Positions 1 to 6,228 of a DNA stretch of 9,795 nt are shown piece by piece. Position numbers and translations under genes: made by a program. Source of the DNA: an uncultured Coriobacteriales bacterium (lineage in GTDB: Bacteria; Actinomycetota; Coriobacteriia; Coriobacteriales; Atopobiaceae). Under the pieces are notes generated by a model, which saw nothing but the letters and a program-made list of their open reading frames with translations, was not told where the DNA came from and ran no database searches. How positions within the stretch are numbered: the first letter of the stretch is position 1; each line of letters opens with the position of its first letter. The stretch spans positions 1 through 9,795 of the forward strand of contig CAMNAH010000025.1 of NCBI GenBank assembly GCA_946530775.1, in the 5' to 3' direction.

Positions 1-232
1 TCTTCTCGGCGCAGTTCCAGGTCTGGTGGTAGTCGGGCAGATCGAGCGCCACGCGATCCTTGGCCTTTGCGTCCTCGGCGAGGTTCGCGAAGGAGACCTT
101 GGTCTCCTGCAACGCGAACACATCCGCATCGAAGGTGCGGATGATGCTCTCGATGCTGGGATCCTTCTTCATGACGGCGCGCAGGCCGTTCACATTCCAG
201 GAAACGAGGCGGTATTCGCGGGTATCGGCCAT
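1..232 (-). CDS. xth: Exodeoxyribonuclease III (5' part, runs off left edge)
   Basis: Exonuclease III/AP endonuclease of the EEP nuclease superfamily: it cleaves DNA at abasic sites and degrades 3' ends in base excision repair, in the cytoplasm. Only the first 77 codons are in the window. The protein begins MADTREYRLVSWNVNGLRAV; WNVNGLRA is the family's first metal/phosphate-binding motif, and LQETKVS near residues 41-47 carries the metal-binding glutamate. YHQTW also fits the family. The start is ATG at 232-230, preceded on the minus strand by AGGAGG (complement of 242-247) nine bases upstream. A pair of palindromic repeats separates it from the patatin gene on the same strand, so it may have its own promoter. 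The C-terminal catalytic Asp/His residues lie outside the window. Confidence 0.93.
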   Translation of the reverse strand, partial: MADTREYRLVSWNVNGLRAVMKKDPSIESIIRTFDADVFALQETKVSFANLAEDAKAKDRVALDLPDYHQTWNCAEK

Positions 233-260: not shown

Positions 261-302
261 GCCTTTTGAGACAAATATCTGCCGTTTATTGTCTCAAAAG
301 GC
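261..302. repeat. 42-bp palindromic repeat, copy 1
   Basis: Perfect 14-bp inverted repeat: GCCTTTTGAGACAA at 261-274 and TTGTCTCAAAAGGC at 289-302, with a 14-nt centre; the T/A pair 260/303 extends it to 15 bp. Three more copies occur at 344-385, 4205-4246 and 4288-4329. The centre of this copy resembles the centres of copies 2 and 3 when read on the other strand, so it looks inverted relative to them. It lies upstream of xth and downstream of the patatin gene. No T-run follows the stem, so it is not a standard intrinsic terminator. Confidence 0.9.
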
Positions 303-342
303 ATAGGGGGGTTGTGACGAGAATACCCATCGCCTTCCCATC

Positions 343-386
343 CGCCTTTTGAGACAAAAAATCGCGAATATTTGTCTCAAAAGGCG
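343..386. repeat. 42-bp palindromic repeat, copy 2
   Basis: Inverted repeat with 16-bp perfect arms, 343-358 and 371-386; the shared 14-bp core arms are 344-357 and 372-385. The centre contains TCGCGA, so the element is close to a full palindrome centred at 364.5. It begins exactly 83 bp after copy 1. The right flank continues GGCGAGTTGA, which also follows copy 3. It lies 27 bp beyond the stop codon of the minus-strand patatin gene. Confidence 0.9.
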
Positions 387-413
387 AGTTGAGGCGAGTC
401 GAGCCCCGAGAAG

Positions 414-1319
414 CTACCCGAAGAGGTATTTCTCGATGCGCGGCCAGTCGCGCTGCGCCTGCGCGTAGCCCATCTCGTAGGAGATGAGCAGCTCAGCGGG
501 CTTGATCGTGGTGCTCGAGACGGGCATCACCTCGGGGCGGATCACCAGCGCGCGCCCGTCTCGCTCGAGCTCCGCCACGTGGTCGAGTTCGGCGTTGTAG
601 CGCTCGCTGCGCGTCATCATGGCCTCAAAGAGCGGCTCGAATCCGCGCGAAAGCGCCTTGTACATGGCCTTCTCACCAGCGGTGGGCGGCTTCTTGCGGT
701 AACCCGCGGGCCGCGTGGCCACAAAGACCATGCGCTCGTAGCCTGCGTCCTCGGCAAGGCGCACCGGGATGCCCGCCCCGCGTCCAAGGCCGCCGTCGTA
801 CATGGTGAGCCCATCGATGACCAGCGGATGCATGAATCCGGGCAGCGTGGAGCTCGCGCGCACGCGGTCGACCATCGCATACATGTCGGGCATGTCGGCC
901 CTGCTCCACACCACGCTCTCGCCCGTCTCGGCCGCGAACGACTGCATGCGCAGGTCGGCGGGATTGGCCGAGAAGGTCTCCCAGTCGAAGGGCATGTAGC
1001 CGTCTTCGATGCAGCCGCGGTAGTCGTAGTCGGCGTTGAAGTAGCCGTGCCCCGTGAGCATGCTGCGCAGGCCGCCCGCCTTGGGCATGTTGTCGGGCAG
1101 CAGGGTGAAGCCCGCCTTCACGCGCCACTTATCGCGGCTCAGGTAGTCAACCGTGTGACTCGCACCTGCGCTGATGCCGCAGACCAGCGGGAAGTACACG
1201 CCGTGCTCGAGCAGGATGTTCGCCGTGCCCGCCGTGTAGCTGGCACGGTATCCGCCGCCCTCGAACACCAGGGCGGCATCGTTCACGTTGCAGGTGAGGT
1301 CGGACACGGAATCGCGCAT
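414..1319 (-). CDS. Patatin-like phospholipase family protein
   Basis: Probable serine acyl hydrolase (lipase/phospholipase A type) of the bacterial patatin family, close in architecture to YjjU/RssA-like proteins; substrate unknown. All catalytic landmarks are present in 301 residues: the oxyanion-hole glycine run GGGYR at 21-25, the nucleophile elbow GISAG at 48-52 (Ser50), and the dyad aspartate in DGGLG at 175-179 (Asp175). There is no signal peptide or membrane segment, so it is probably cytoplasmic or peripheral. The chosen ATG (1319-1317) has GGAAGG upstream on the minus strand with about ten bases spacing, and the motifs sit at normal distances from this start. It is divergent from the Sir2 gene across 70 bp. 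A weak minus-strand promoter candidate is TACGAT (complement of 1342-1347) with TTGTTG (complement of 1363-1368), but the 15-bp spacer is short. Confidence 0.9.
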   Translation of the reverse strand: MRDSVSDLTCNVNDAALVFEGGGYRASYTAGTANILLEHGVYFPLVCGISAGASHTVDYLSRDKWRVKAGFTLLPDNMPKAGGLRSMLTGHGYFNADYDYRGCIEDGYMPFDWETFSANPADLRMQSFAAETGESVVWSRADMPDMYAMVDRVRASSTLPGFMHPLVIDGLTMYDGGLGRGAGIPVRLAEDAGYERMVFVATRPAGYRKKPPTAGEKAMYKALSRGFEPLFEAMMTRSERYNAELDHVAELERDGRALVIRPEVMPVSSTTIKPAELLISYEMGYAQAQRDWPRIEKYLFG

Positions 1320-1348
1320 GTCGGCGGGGCCTTCCCAAGGAATCGTAA

Positions 1349-1357
1349 TGCTACAGT
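1349..1357 (+). promoter_or_regulatory. Candidate extended -10 promoter for the Sir2 gene
   Basis: TGC followed by TACAGT forms an extended -10 element about 33 bp before the ATG at 1390. No good -35 is seen, which extended -10 promoters can tolerate. The same TGC-TACANT form occurs before rpmE. A gene-specific Shine-Dalgarno AAGGAG (1379-1384) lies five bases from the start codon. Confidence 0.4.
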
Positions 1358-1389
1358 AACCCCAACAATCCTAGCGGGAAGGAGCGCTC

Positions 1390-2127
1390 ATGGCCCGTAC
1401 AATCTCCGATTCCATACAGGCAGCCCAAGAACTGAAGGCAATCGTAGACGCCGCCGGCAGCGTGGCGTTCTTCGGCGGCGCGGGCGTCTCCACCGCCAGC
1501 GGCATCCCCGATTTCCGCTCGCCGGGCGGCCTCTACCACCAGAAGTTCGCCTACCCGCCCGAGGAGATGCTCGGCCACGACTTCTTCTACAGCCACACCG
1601 AGGAGTTCTACGAGTTCTACCGCACGCGCATGATCGCGCTCGACGCCAAGCCCAACCAGGCGCACCTCAAGCTCGCCGAGCTCGAGCGCGACGGCAAGCT
1701 CACGGGCGTCGTCACCCAGAACATCGACGGCCTGCACCAGATGGCCGGCTCGAAGAACGTCTTCGAGCTGCACGGGTCGGTGCACCGCAACATCTGCACG
1801 CGCTGCGGCAAGACCTACTCCGCCGAGTGGATCCTCGGCACCGAGGGCGTGCCGCATTGCGAGGAGTGCGGCGCCCTCATCAAGCCCGACGTGGTGCTCT
1901 ATGGCGAGTCGCTCGACGAGACGTGCATCCTCGGCGCCATCAACGCCATCGCCCACGCCGACGTGCTCATCGTGGGCGGAACGTCGCTCGTGGTGTATCC
2001 CGCGGCGGGCCTCGTGCGCTACTTCCAGGGCTCTAAGCTCGTGATCGTGAACCTCGAGCCCACACCGCAGGACGCCAATGCCGACCTCGTCTGCGCCTGC
2101 GACATCGCCGCAGCGTTCGATTTTTGA
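1390..2127 (+). CDS. cobB: Sir2-family NAD-dependent protein deacylase
   Basis: Sirtuin that removes acyl groups from protein lysines using NAD+, giving nicotinamide and O-acyl-ADP-ribose; cytoplasmic. At 245 residues it has the usual length of the bacterial, Thermotoga-like class. The NAD-binding motif GAGVSTASGIPDFRS is at 30-44, TQNIDGLH at 109-116, and the catalytic histidine in LHG is His128. The zinc ribbon is complete, with Cys136/Cys139 and Cys157/Cys160. GGTSLVVYPAAGL near 198-210 is the late Rossmann motif. It starts with ATG after AAGGAG at 1379-1384. It has its own promoter region, divergent from the patatin gene, and its stop codon overlaps the -35 box of the next gene, so the two are packed but separately promoted. 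No acetyl-CoA synthetase or acetyltransferase partner is in view. Confidence 0.96.
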   Translation: MARTISDSIQAAQELKAIVDAAGSVAFFGGAGVSTASGIPDFRSPGGLYHQKFAYPPEEMLGHDFFYSHTEEFYEFYRTRMIALDAKPNQAHLKLAELERDGKLTGVVTQNIDGLHQMAGSKNVFELHGSVHRNICTRCGKTYSAEWILGTEGVPHCEECGALIKPDVVLYGESLDETCILGAINAIAHADVLIVGGTSLVVYPAAGLVRYFQGSKLVIVNLEPTPQDANADLVCACDIAAAFDF

Positions 2128-2153
2128 GTGAACGCGCATATACGCGCTACAAT
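2124..2153 (+). promoter_or_regulatory. Sigma-70-type promoter for folP-folK
   Basis: TTGAGT at 2124-2129 and TACAAT at 2148-2153 are separated by 18 bp. The -35 overlaps the stop codon (2125-2127) of the Sir2 gene. The predicted start near 2160 leaves a leader of about 55 nt before the ATG at 2216. The leader shows only a weak TCGGA/TCCGA hairpin, too slight to call a switch. Confidence 0.65.
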
Positions 2154-2215
2154 AGGGGAAGGCAAACGCAGCTGAAACCGTTCGGAGCCATTACGGTCCG
2201 AGAAAGGCCTAAACC

Positions 2216-3646
2216 ATGCTCAAAGAGGGATACGCAGTCTGGCAGTGCGGCAACTATGAGCTGTCGCTCACGCGTCCGCGCATCATGGGCATCCTCAACG
2301 TGACGCCCGATTCCTTCTCGGATGGGGGAGAGCACCTCGATGTCGATGCGGCCGTTGCCCGCGCACTCGAGATGCTCGACGAGGGCGCCGACATCATCGA
2401 CGTGGGCGGCGAGTCCACGCGACCCGGCCACACGCCCGTCTCGCCCAACGTCGAGGCAGAGCGCGTGGTGCCGGTCATCCGCAAGATTATCGCTGCGGTG
2501 CCCGACGCGATCATCTCCATCGACACGCGCCACCCCGAGGTGGCCAAGATGTGCGTGCGCCTGGGCGCGTCGATCATCAACGACGTCACCGGCTTCACCA
2601 ACCCCGCCATGGTGGACGTTGCCGCGGGATCCAACTGCGGCTGCGTGATCATGCATTGGGATCGCACGCTCGACGAGCCGCCTGCGCGCAGGCAGGTTGT
2701 GCTCGACGACACCAAGCCTGTGCGCACCGTGCCCTCGAGCCAGCGCTTCACCCTGCCCGAAGAGGCGCCCATCATGCGCAAGGTCATGGGTTTTCTCGGC
2801 GATTCCGCCCGCACCCTGCTGCGCGCGGGCATCGCGAAGGAGCGCATCTGCGTCGACCCGGGCGCGGGCTTCGATAAGGACGCCAACCAGGACGTGGTGA
2901 TCCAGCGCGCCACGCGCTCCATGGTGTCGATGGGCTATCCGCTCATGTGCGCCGTGTCGCGCAAGCGCTTCACGGGCGCGGTTTCGGGCGAGAAGGACGC
3001 CACCCAGCGTGACGCCGCCACCATCGGCATCGCGCTCTCGTCCATCGCGGCCGGTGCGCGCATCCTGCGCGTGCACAACGTGGCTGCTACGGCCGACGCG
3101 GTCAACGCCTATTGGGCCGTCAACCGCAAGGATCCGCGCCAGGCGTTCGTGAGCTTGGGCTCCAACCTGGGCGACCGTCTCGACAACCTCTCGCGCGCCG
3201 TTGCGCTGATCGACCATATCCCCATGACCTGCGTGGTGCAGGTGAGCCATGCCTACGACACCGCTCCCGCCTACGGCATCTCGTCGTCGGTGGCCAACGC
3301 CGTGGTTGAGATCCGCACCGAGCTGCACCCGCTCGTGCTGCTCGACGAGCTGCTCAAGGTGGAGGACACGCTGGGCCGCGAGCGCCCCGCGGGCCAGGAC
3401 GGCTTTGGCGACCGCACCATCGACTGCGACCTCGAGTGGGTCGAGGGCGAGCGGCACGCCGGCAGGAAGCTCACGCTGCCGCACTCCCGCATGGGCGAGC
3501 GCGACTACGTGATCCTGCCCATGGAGGACCTCATGCACGACCCCGCGCGCTTCTTCGAGTACGCCAACGCCCCGGTCAAGGTGCTGCCGCGCGAGCAGCG
3601 CGTGGGCATGGTCATGTCCGACCTGGGCGAGCTCACGTGGGAGTAG
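2216..3646 (+). CDS. folPK: Fused dihydropteroate synthase / HPPK
   Basis: Bifunctional folate enzyme of 476 residues. The N-terminal half is dihydropteroate synthase, joining p-aminobenzoate to hydroxymethyl-dihydropterin pyrophosphate. The C-terminal domain is 6-hydroxymethyl-dihydropterin pyrophosphokinase, which makes that pyrophosphate. DHPS signatures: GILNVTPDSFSDGG at 25-38, DVGGESTRPG at 62-71, SIDTR near 100-104, the SRK..F loop and a late RVHN. HPPK starts at about residue 310 with FVSLGSNLGDR; GRERP at 387-391 and DRTIDCDL at 399-406 carry the Mg/ATP residues. Between MHW (146-148) and DSARTLL (196) there are about 47 residues, roughly 20 more than in E. coli FolP by recall. No folB (aldolase) domain lies between the two enzymes. 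The Shine-Dalgarno is modest (AAAGG, 2203-2207). Two bases separate its stop from the next start, so the pair is surely cotranscribed. Confidence 0.96.
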   Translation: MLKEGYAVWQCGNYELSLTRPRIMGILNVTPDSFSDGGEHLDVDAAVARALEMLDEGADIIDVGGESTRPGHTPVSPNVEAERVVPVIRKIIAAVPDAIISIDTRHPEVAKMCVRLGASIINDVTGFTNPAMVDVAAGSNCGCVIMHWDRTLDEPPARRQVVLDDTKPVRTVPSSQRFTLPEEAPIMRKVMGFLGDSARTLLRAGIAKERICVDPGAGFDKDANQDVVIQRATRSMVSMGYPLMCAVSRKRFTGAVSGEKDATQRDAATIGIALSSIAAGARILRVHNVAATADAVNAYWAVNRKDPRQAFVSLGSNLGDRLDNLSRAVALIDHIPMTCVVQVSHAYDTAPAYGISSSVANAVVEIRTELHPLVLLDELLKVEDTLGRERPAGQDGFGDRTIDCDLEWVEGERHAGRKLTLPHSRMGERDYVILPMEDLMHDPARFFEYANAPVKVLPREQRVGMVMSDLGELTWE

Positions 3647-3648
3647 CC

Positions 3649-4176
3649 GTGGAAGGCGCGCAGACGCTCGAGATAACCCTGCGGCCGCGGGTTCCCATGC
3701 CCTATGTGCAGGCAGCGGCGCCGCTTGCCGCGCTGGCGATTGCCGAGCAGGTCGGTCCGGACGCGCAGGTGCTCTGGCCGTGCGCGGTTGTGGCTGATGG
3801 CTGCGAGATTGCCCGCGTGAGCGCCAAAGCCGGCTACGACGAGGGCATGTTCGTGCGGCTCTGCGTTGCGTTCGCGACGCCGCGCGATGACCTTGCGCAG
3901 ATGGAAGCTTCGATTGCTTCCCGTGCGGATGCGTGGGAGCGTTCCGTGGGGGAGGGGCGCGCTGCCGCGGGGCCCTTCTCGCCGTTCGCGAGCGACTTCT
4001 TTGACCGGATGGCGGGTATGGGCACGGCCGTTGACCTGCTGTTTCCCAACGGCAACCTGTTCAGCGAGGCTGTGCTCAAAGGTCTCGACATGTGGGGCCG
4101 CATCTCGGTCGAGTTGGCGGACGGACGCCAGATGGATTGCCCGCCGGAGCAGGTTTCGCTGCGCCTGAAGGCGTGA
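3649..4176 (+). CDS. Degenerate biotin-protein-ligase-like protein, catalytic parts missing
   Basis: 175-residue protein that aligns by eye with the second half of biotin protein ligase (BirA). LEITLRPRVP at 7-16 matches the strand after the biotin loop; VLWPCAVVADGCEIA at 41-55 matches the KWPND region; the C-terminal LADGRQMDCPPEQVSLRLK matches the small BirA C-domain ending in GEISLR. The N-terminal third with the GRGRRGR biotin/AMP loop is absent. The catalytic lysine and the N-D of KWPND are replaced (LWPCA), and the GxGIN motif is not recognisable. It therefore probably cannot biotinylate; a regulatory or structural role is possible, as is slow decay, although the frame is open. The GTG at 3649 (GGGAG five bases upstream) follows the folPK stop by two bases; an alternative GTG at 3637 would overlap folPK. 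The homology claim is mine by inspection. Confidence 0.7.
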   Translation: MEGAQTLEITLRPRVPMPYVQAAAPLAALAIAEQVGPDAQVLWPCAVVADGCEIARVSAKAGYDEGMFVRLCVAFATPRDDLAQMEASIASRADAWERSVGEGRAAAGPFSPFASDFFDRMAGMGTAVDLLFPNGNLFSEAVLKGLDMWGRISVELADGRQMDCPPEQVSLRLKA

Positions 4177-4204
4177 GCCAGAGCGCTCTGGGCCTTCTCC
4201 CCAT

Positions 4205-4246
4205 GCCTTTTGAGACAAAAAACGCGAATAATATGTCTCAAAAGGC
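4205..4246. repeat. 42-bp palindromic repeat, copy 3
   Basis: Arms of 13 bp pair perfectly (4205-4217 with 4234-4246); the 14th core position is a mismatch, A4218/A4233. The 14-nt centre AAAACGCGAATAAT is close to that of copy 2. The right flank GGCGAGTTGA is shared with copy 2. It lies 28 bp after the stop of the biotin-ligase-like gene. Confidence 0.9.
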
Positions 4247-4285
4247 GAGTTGAAGGCACCTGTAGGATGTATACGAAAGCATCCT

Positions 4286-4331
4286 TCGCCTTTTGGGACA
4301 ACTTTTCGAGTATTTTTGTCTCAAAAGGCGA
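4286..4331. repeat. 42-bp palindromic repeat, copy 4
   Basis: Arms 4286-4301 and 4316-4331 pair over 16 bp with one G-T; the left arm carries GGGACA instead of GAGACA. The 42-bp core is 4288-4329 and starts exactly 83 bp after copy 3. Its right flank GGCGAG runs straight into the Shine-Dalgarno (AAGGAG, 4333-4338) of the next gene, so a hairpin in the RNA would end one or two bases before the ribosome binding site. Between copies 3 and 4 a small AGGATG/CATCCT stem (4264-4269 and 4280-4285) is also present. Confidence 0.9.
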
Positions 4332-4345
4332 GAAGGAGCTGCGAA

Positions 4346-4927
4346 GTGGGGGATGAGATGGAAGAGGACGTCCGCGAAACGGTGATCTGCACCGAGCACA
4401 CGCAATCCAACCTGCGCGGATACGGAATCCTGCTCGCGTTTGGCCTCATCATGGTCGTAAGCACGCTGTTCGGCATCCTGACTGGAGGCCGCGACAACAT
4501 CTATGCCGGCATCGGCCTGGTGACGGGCGCCGTGCTCTCGGTGCTTGCCGGCTACATGCTCGTGGTGTGGAAGAACCGCCAGGTCACGGTGGGTCCCGAA
4601 GGCATCGAGCTCGTCGACGCCTTCGGCAAGGTGCGCACCTACGCCTGGAACGACGTGCGCATCGACGACAGCCGCACCACCTCGTCGGGCGGCATAACCT
4701 TCCGCACGCGCGACAAGCGCGAAGAGCCGTTCGCACCCTCGTGCGGCGGCTTCCGCGATATGTGCGAGCTGCTCATCGGCATGGGCAAGCTCCGCCGCAT
4801 CGACGAGGCGGCCCTGGCGCGCAAGCGCAAGATGAAGGGCCTCTTCGATGTGGTCCAGAGCGCTGGCCGCGAGAAGGTCGACGAGAGCCTCTACCTGCCC
4901 GAATCCAAAACTGACGACGCCGAATAG
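4346..4927 (+). CDS. Two-helix membrane protein with PH-like domain
   Basis: Hypothetical 193-residue protein. After an acidic N-terminus there are two hydrophobic segments (about residues 26-45, GILLAFGLIMVVSTLFGIL, and about 51-72, ending YMLVVWKNR). A cytosolic region beginning VTVGPEGIELVDAFGKVRTY resembles bacterial PH-like domains of the YdbS/DUF304 type: beta strands, a conserved W-x-D/E turn (AWNDVRIDD), then a closing helix. The Lys/Arg-rich C-terminus is soluble. Function is unknown; related proteins are generic membrane-associated factors. An upstream in-frame ATG at 4250 is rejected because it would translate palindrome copy 4. GTG 4346 has AAGGAG (4333-4338) seven bases upstream; ATG 4358 is an alternative. 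It ends five bases from the end of the convergent coaX. Confidence 0.75.
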   Translation: MGDEMEEDVRETVICTEHTQSNLRGYGILLAFGLIMVVSTLFGILTGGRDNIYAGIGLVTGAVLSVLAGYMLVVWKNRQVTVGPEGIELVDAFGKVRTYAWNDVRIDDSRTTSSGGITFRTRDKREEPFAPSCGGFRDMCELLIGMGKLRRIDEAALARKRKMKGLFDVVQSAGREKVDESLYLPESKTDDAE

Positions 4928-5722: not shown

Positions 5723-5751
5723 TTGTCATCGCCTCGAATACATGCTACACT
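5723..5751 (+). promoter_or_regulatory. rpmE promoter
   Basis: TTGTCA at 5723-5728, a 17-bp spacer, and TACACT at 5746-5751 preceded by TG at 5743-5744 (extended -10). This is the best promoter in the window, as expected for a ribosomal protein gene. Predicted start is near 5758, giving a leader of about 78 nt. Confidence 0.75.
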
Positions 5752-5757
5752 TCCAAG

Positions 5758-5835
5758 GCTTGACTGTCTTGGTCGGAAACCAAGACGAAGACCCCGCCCT
5801 GGTCGGAAACCAGGGCACAGAAAAGGAGTCCTGCT
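5758..5835 (+). promoter_or_regulatory. rpmE (L31) leader with two tandem hairpins
   Basis: Two 21-nt hairpins, 5766-5786 and 5796-5816, start exactly 30 nt apart. Each has an 8-bp stem and the same CGGAA loop closed by GGU/ACC (shared core GGTCGGAAACC). The lower stems differ by two compensatory U-A to C-G changes (GTCTTGGT/ACCAAGAC versus GCCCTGGT/ACCAGGGC), so structure is kept rather than sequence. The Shine-Dalgarno AAGGAG (5823-5828) follows within seven bases of hairpin 2. This is the layout of a ribosomal-protein leader bound by its own product. I recall that L31 leader motifs, including a Coriobacteria class, have been described, so this may be a member. Confidence 0.7.
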
Positions 5836-6228
5836 ATGAAACAAGGTATCCATCCCCAGTACATGGCCTGCACGGTCCGCTGCAGCTGCGGCAACACGTG
5901 GGTGACCCGCGCCACCAAGCCCGAGATGCGCCTCGACCTGTGCGATAAGTGCCACCCGTTCTACACCGGCACCCAGAAGCTCGTCGACACCGGTGGTCGC
6001 GTCCAGCGCTTCGCCGACAAGTTCGGCTCCGCTGCCCAGGCTCGCCTCGATGCCGCTGCCAAGGCCAAGGCCGCCAAGGCCGAGAAGGCCGCTGCCGCCG
6101 AGGCTGCCCGCAAGGCTGCCGCCGAGGCCAAGGCCGCCGAGAAGGCCCGCCGCGCCGCCGAGTTCGAGAAGAAGGCCGCCGAGGCTCCCGCCGTTGAGGA
6201 GGCTCCTGCCGAGGAGACCGCCGAGTAG
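5836..6228 (+). CDS. rpmE: 50S ribosomal protein L31 with long Ala/Lys-rich tail
   Basis: Large-subunit protein bridging the 50S central protuberance and the 30S head. It is a zinc-binding (C+) form, with CSC at 16-18 and CDKC at 36-39 matching the four zinc cysteines. IHPQY, the CHPFYTG motif and [12 protein letters not shown] are canonical. A standard L31 ends near residue 66-75; here an extra stretch of about 65 residues continues to 130, made almost entirely of Ala, Lys and Glu in helix-forming repeats and ending in an acidic tail. The start is ATG 5836 with AAGGAG seven bases upstream. It is monocistronic: own promoter and leader, and a strong terminator at 6258-6292. Zinc-type L31 is often paired with a zinc-free paralogue under zinc limitation, but none is in view. 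Confidence 0.95.

Follow-up and report, generated by a model that had tools for sequence, protein, structure and literature searches.

Two pairs of long palindromes, set at the same exact distance beside different genes of one genome, raise the question of what keeps such a geometry in place. They lie in a window of 9,795 nucleotides, the whole stretch of DNA that was analysed (contig CAMNAH010000025.1), from an uncultured Coriobacteriales bacterium of the Atopobiaceae. The reading favoured here, with a probability of roughly 0.6, is that the pairs are dispersed putative binding sites, and perhaps cutting sites, of a protein that joins an AbiEi-like part to a nuclease. Their organisation would be like that of REPINs, which are doublets of repetitive extragenic palindromic sequences (REPs), with a partner other than an HUH transposase.

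Pair A consists of palindrome 1 (261-302; half-sites 261-273 and 290-302, with a 16-nt gap) and palindrome 2 (344-385; half-sites 344-356 and 373-385). Pair B consists of palindrome 3 (4205-4246; half-sites 4205-4217 and 4234-4246) and palindrome 4 (4288-4329; half-sites 4288-4300, one base off, and 4317-4329). None is assigned to a strand. The form common to all four is GCCTTTTGAGACA / 16 nt / TGTCTCAAAAGGC, and the eight 13-base half-sites are identical apart from one. The original prediction had described four copies of one element. Four 42-bp palindromes are indeed present, but the perfect 14-bp arms belong to copies 1 and 2; copy 3 ends in ATGTCTC, not TTGTCTC, with the deviating base just inside the right 13-mer, and copy 4 starts with GCCTTTTGGGACAA, which has one altered base in the left arm. 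Copy 4 also ends at 4329, two bases before the end first given (4331). The other observations were confirmed. Start-to-start distances are exactly 83 bp in both pairs (261/344 and 4205/4288), no T-run lies 3' of any copy, and the 41-nt spacers of pair A (303-343) and pair B (4247-4287) are unrelated, with 10/41 positions the same as read and 16/41 against the reverse complement. Chance is excluded because the palindromes fold far better than their dinucleotide shuffles (z -5.8 to -7.9; 0/200 shuffles equal in each case). No Rfam family was found at the palindromes at gathering scores. The exact palindrome pattern had 0 matches in genome contigs and 0 in viral contigs, and a relaxed pattern had 0 in the 140 genomes of the family.

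Relatives were found with a FolP/FolK query, which returned 78 loci. The nearest are L071 (91% identity), L001, L002, L003 (strain OH1046), and L004, from genomes G001, G002, G003, G004, and G005, respectively. In G001, both orthologous sites hold palindrome pairs with arms quite different from those of the window, spaced at 74 bp at site A (L071 1792-1921) and 85 bp at site B (5725-5864). In G004 and G005, site A holds a single longer palindrome that includes GAGACA-N16-TGTC, and site B holds none. G003 has a palindrome at neither site, and the G002 locus ends short of site A. A palindrome is thus found at site A in the window, G001, G004, and G005, and the inner half-site of G005 agrees with the window half-site at 11/12 bases. 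Orthologous position, common gap, and this near-identical half-site suggest that the window pairs belong to the same system as the repeats of the relatives. At orthologous positions the geometry is kept and the sequence differs by species, as expected under co-evolution of site and protein; turnover between G004/G005 and G001 can be compared at 1/9 sites only (site A). Between 2 and about 28 palindromes per genome were seen in G001-G005.

The genome-wide pattern was followed in G001, where 749 kb of about 1.6 Mb were read; type X palindromes were sought genome-wide and type Y in the 749 kb only. The arm CTTTTAGTATCTGGACA (up to three mismatches) occurs 30 times in the whole genome, against 0 for a reversed control pattern; 29 arms fall in clusters and one (C1) stands alone. 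Type X, with 23-bp half-sites AGCTGGCTTTTAGTATCTGGACA, forms 18 palindromes, and type Y (ACTTGGNTATCTGGAYA) forms eight. All are compatible with the 16-nt gap of the window. The eight X-X pairs are all spaced at exactly 74 bp and lie outside called genes. Y-Y spacings are 75, 85, and 85 bp, Y-X spacings are 84, 91, 91, and 104 bp, and L223 has one more pair, of another kind, at 91 bp. The arrays are ordered, with YYXX in two cases and YXX and YX in one each, and resemble the mosaics of bacterial interspersed mosaic elements (BIMEs). The nearest stop codon is within about 1-82 bp for 11/12 clusters, the exception being C137, between divergent genes; three clusters lie between convergent genes. 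C137 (L216 3451-4143) contains the one X palindrome that is unpaired in G001; a gene for a Vsr-family mismatch endonuclease lies 55 bp downstream of it.

Selection on geometry, as the original prediction proposed, is supported by these same-type spacings, which are near seven or eight helical turns despite a near-random spacer. Their 10.5-bp periodicity gives a resultant of 0.92 for 13 spacings and 0.85 for the four distinct values, in a small set in which the independence of the eight 74s is not proven. The proposed check of spacing across genomes came out in its favour in G001, where 16/18 type X palindromes are paired at 74 bp. Two observations weigh against the interpretation in the original prediction: doubling is not general, palindromes in G003, G004, and G005 being single (up to three mismatches), and Y-X neighbours in G001 are also 91 and 104 bp apart. 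The resultant is 0.66 when all 18 spacings are counted, including Y-X and L223, with 91 off-period.

Whether the arms act as hairpins or as half-sites was judged from their sequences. Under selection for base pairing, a palindrome's own two arms would be better matched than two arms drawn from separate palindromes. The within- and between-palindrome matches were 0.787 and 0.773 for X (p 0.14) and 0.860 and 0.840 for Y (p 0.13), in a test of limited power made in G001 only, the window arms being too alike for it. No significant covariation between arms was found in the 26 G001 palindromes. Because G001 arms match their own partner no better than arms elsewhere, they appear to behave like protein half-sites and not like hairpins. 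Positions C3, CTTT at 7-10, G20, and A21 of the X half-site are invariant in 36/36 arms.

A candidate protein is pointed to by a gene that the palindromes enclose. In G001, a 344-aa gene (L126 7658-8692, minus strand) is enclosed by two X pairs. The palindrome family of G004 and G005 encloses a homolog between mraZ-like and xerD-like genes, and that of G003 encloses one at yet another location; in G003, the gap is 15 bp in 6/6 two-armed palindromes. In G002, the only motif matches (three arms) stand either side of the homolog, and one arm of the right-hand palindrome is poor. Across these five close species the gene thus occupies three different locations in the chromosome: between glycosyltransferase (GT)-like genes in G001 and G002, between mraZ and xerD in G004 and G005, and another in G003. 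The mraZ-xerD interval of G002 lacks both the partner gene and the genome motifs. Because of these three places and the empty interval, movement of the palindrome-gene-palindrome unit is suggested. The names GT, DivIVA, Trk, mraZ, xerD, and dnaX were presumed on inspection of the translations and do not come from a family search. Homologs, which have no Pfam name, occur in 92/140 genomes of the family, often several in each, and, at E 1e-8, in 71/396 genomes sampled across the phylum, with the best five candidates per genome scored.

The association between gene and repeat extends beyond these relatives. The left and right 450-bp flanks have a common exact string of at least 14 in 34/50 partner genes, compared with 2/30 control genes, and in 31/45 when the five G001-G005 loci are left out. 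Palindromic arms of at least 12 are present on both sides in 16/50 and 0/30, respectively, and on either side in 35/50 and 7/30. The 50 genes are all 30 loci of the family search and 20 further genes picked from its list (paralogs, seven genomes). A second set of 54 genes (26 of those 30 loci and 29 of the 30 phylum-search loci, minus L300, which was skipped) was compared with distal flanks of the same loci, giving 31/54 against 0/54 for a common exact 14-mer and 19/54 against 0/54 for palindromic arms. Flanks share a 14-mer at 17/29 phylum loci, one of which, L349, corresponds to the gene listed as L323 in the 50-gene set. The association is seen in 7/10 distant homologs (E 1e-58 to 1e-46). 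The flank repeats of paralogs within a genome mostly differ, with strings of at least 14 shared within the locus at 18/22 loci and between loci in 12/52 comparisons. In L288, arrays of many palindromes stand on both sides of the partner gene (823-1386 and 2649-3029), several of them about 109 bp apart. In L280 (G003; about 1317-1390 and 2570-2646), the palindromes flanking the partner gene have further adjoining bases in common, directly oriented, which would suit a unit with defined ends.

The partner protein is predicted to combine an AbiEi-antitoxin-like DNA-binding part with a nuclease domain like that of the homing enzyme I-Bth0305I (Vsr-like). The predicted structure has an N-terminal winged helix and the AbiEi C-terminal domain fold, and the predicted nuclease domain has a Vsr-like catalytic fold with conserved acidic and lysine residues. 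A PDB sequence search with A1 returned weak flagellin matches only (E 0.14 and 0.15). Unlike I-Bth0305I, the nuclease here is joined to an AbiEi-like part, and palindromes stand on both sides of its gene. For homing, in which a gene sits inside and disrupts its own target, the relevant observations are the position of the gene between two palindromes and the empty mraZ-xerD interval of G002, which is without the genome motifs.

Because of the geometry and the homology, a mechanism can be proposed. Each palindrome would present inverted half-sites across a fixed 16-bp gap, and the doublet would put two such sites 83 bp, or about eight helical turns, apart on one DNA face. One protein molecule would sit on each half-site (AbiEi and Rv2827c bind in one event per 23-bp repeat), two nuclease domains would meet across the gap, and neighbouring palindromes would be spaced for two dimers to stack or loop. 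The 15-16 nt gap of the window and G001-G005 is, as judged by eye, poorly conserved, often with A/T-rich edges and a CG near the dyad, a possible cleavage centre. The palindromes would be maintained and would multiply as targets or docking elements of the nuclease, much in the way that REPINs depend on REP-associated tyrosine transposases (RAYTs), and the window species would be expected to carry a partner gene. A broader proposal, which we hold tentatively and just short of an even chance, is that these actinobacteria contain a widespread class of repeat systems. Each AbiEi-nuclease paralog would be enclosed by, and would bind or cut, its own dispersed palindrome family, with specificity and sites changing together between species, as an independent, double-strand, dimer-type counterpart of RAYT/REPIN. 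If the main reading is right, it is a fused DNA-binding nuclease, not an HUH transposase, on which the REP-like palindromes of these actinobacteria depend, gene-repeat dependence of this kind arose more than once, and a family without a Pfam name, matched in most of the relatives, gains a testable function. Literature describing palindromes tied to an AbiEi-nuclease was not found by titles and the beginnings of abstracts, a search with thin coverage of subscription journals and preprints.

The most serious competitor, though an unlikely one, is that the pairs are ordinary operators through which a regulator, AbiEi-like or other, controls the adjacent genes, the doublet serving looping or cooperative repression. 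A start codon lies 16-28 bp downstream of each window pair, four genomes have a palindrome at site A, and the half-site behaviour and fixed spacing fit; half-site behaviour in G001 likewise favours the two-operator reading of the original prediction. AbiEi proteins repress via inverted repeats (PMC7319586). AbiEi and Rv2827c operators, from type IV toxin-antitoxin autoregulation, have 23-bp inverted repeats, and that of Rv2827c has two tandem pairs, 23-13-23-4-23-13-23 (PMC7319586). Long fixed-gap inverted repeats are likewise present here as sequence features, with half-sites of 22-23 bp in G001, G004, and G005, a tandem double layout of 23-16-23-12-23-16-23 in G001, and a related predicted fold of the binding part. 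Unlike those operators, with gaps of 3 or 13, the gap here is 15-16, the sites are dispersed far from the gene, and the protein has a predicted nuclease domain that is conserved. The window sites adjoin genes other than an abiE operon (no toxin search was made around the partner gene). Simple operators also sit poorly with the position of most G001 clusters just beside stop codons, with the three between convergent genes, where a promoter is unexpected, and with flanking genes that have no evident common theme (they were not systematically annotated). Base-paired RNA or DNA hairpins (terminators, mRNA stabilisers, or cruciforms) would account for the near-perfect pairing and strong folding in the window and for placement after stop codons. 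Hairpins would leave the exact pair spacing unexplained, and a loop could vary where the gap is constant at 15-16; with no significant covariation, no T-run, and no Rfam match, the terminator or RNA-element candidate was rejected, and base-pairing selection as a whole is improbable. A similarly small chance is given to decayed fossils of a palindrome-ended transposon (miniature inverted-repeat transposable element). Copying of pairs as a unit would give fixed spacing, and spacer identity over the eight X pairs (mean pairwise 0.34) is a little above the shuffled 0.25. Neutral decay should erode all parts alike, with indels, whereas arm identity is 0.77-0.85 against 0.37-0.41 in the gaps and 0.34 in the spacer. 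Identity in the outer flanks is 0.27.

Mobilisation of a REPIN or BIME by an HUH (Y1) RAYT transposase has the slimmest chance of all, even though the repeats are dispersed, intergenic, palindromic, and in mosaic arrays and Y1_Tnp genes occur in all five relatives. REPs flank RAYT genes. Among the 12 Y1 loci read in G001-G005 (of 14 matches), none holds the genome motifs, and three hold other long palindromes; the RAYT-driven candidate was rejected on this ground. By the features of REPINs and REPs given in PMC3116915 and PMC8266576, the likeness is that the repeats are short, palindromic, and intergenic, that they form doublets and mosaic arrays, and that the partner genes are distinct and single-copy. 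Neither the GTAG tag of REPs (PMC8266576) nor the CGTC tag of the title of PMC3733652 lies 12 nt or less from any of the four window palindromes. The flanked gene encodes no HUH transposase, the arms behave as double-strand protein half-sites, copy number is low, and dispersed intergenic doublets are found in G001 and not in G003-G005. The REP/BIME-like description in the original prediction therefore holds for organisation and not for family, so that its interpretation is partly supported. A CRISPR (clustered regularly interspaced short palindromic repeats) mini-array was also ruled out, as the 16-nt gaps inside the 'repeat' vary between copies.

Other palindromes were noted in the relatives. 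Perfect or near-perfect ones of 74-87 bp with loops of 0-12 occur at L001 2759-2844, L002 12543-12616, and L071 6518-6591, and the same class is seen at L128 11937-12023 and 14890-14975. These very long palindromes are probably separate REPIN-type families. Similar-looking palindromes lie near Y1_Tnp genes in L373 and L377.

Both window pairs lie between co-directional genes, as first described; gene calls around the sites came from our own codon-score script and open reading frame (ORF) listings. Pair A lies 28 bp upstream of the start, placed by that script, of an endonuclease/exonuclease/phosphatase family gene whose beginning is in the window (2..232, minus strand; PF03372) and which we take to be xthA-like. 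On its other side, a patatin-like phospholipase gene (414..1319, minus strand; PF01734, PF19890) has its stop 28 bp before the pair. Pair B follows, at 28 bp, the stop of an ORF for a 175-aa protein (3649..4176, plus strand), which stands between folP/folK and a 193-aa gene, belongs to no Pfam family, and has matches in 114/140 relatives. The 193-aa gene (4346..4927, plus strand) has no assigned function (DUF6560 below cut-off) and starts either at GTG 4346, 16 bp beyond the end of pair B, or at ATG 4358. Further downstream, an L31-Coriobacteria ribosomal protein leader (Rfam RF03128, 48.5 bits) is found at 5796-5828, upstream of an ORF at 5836-6228.
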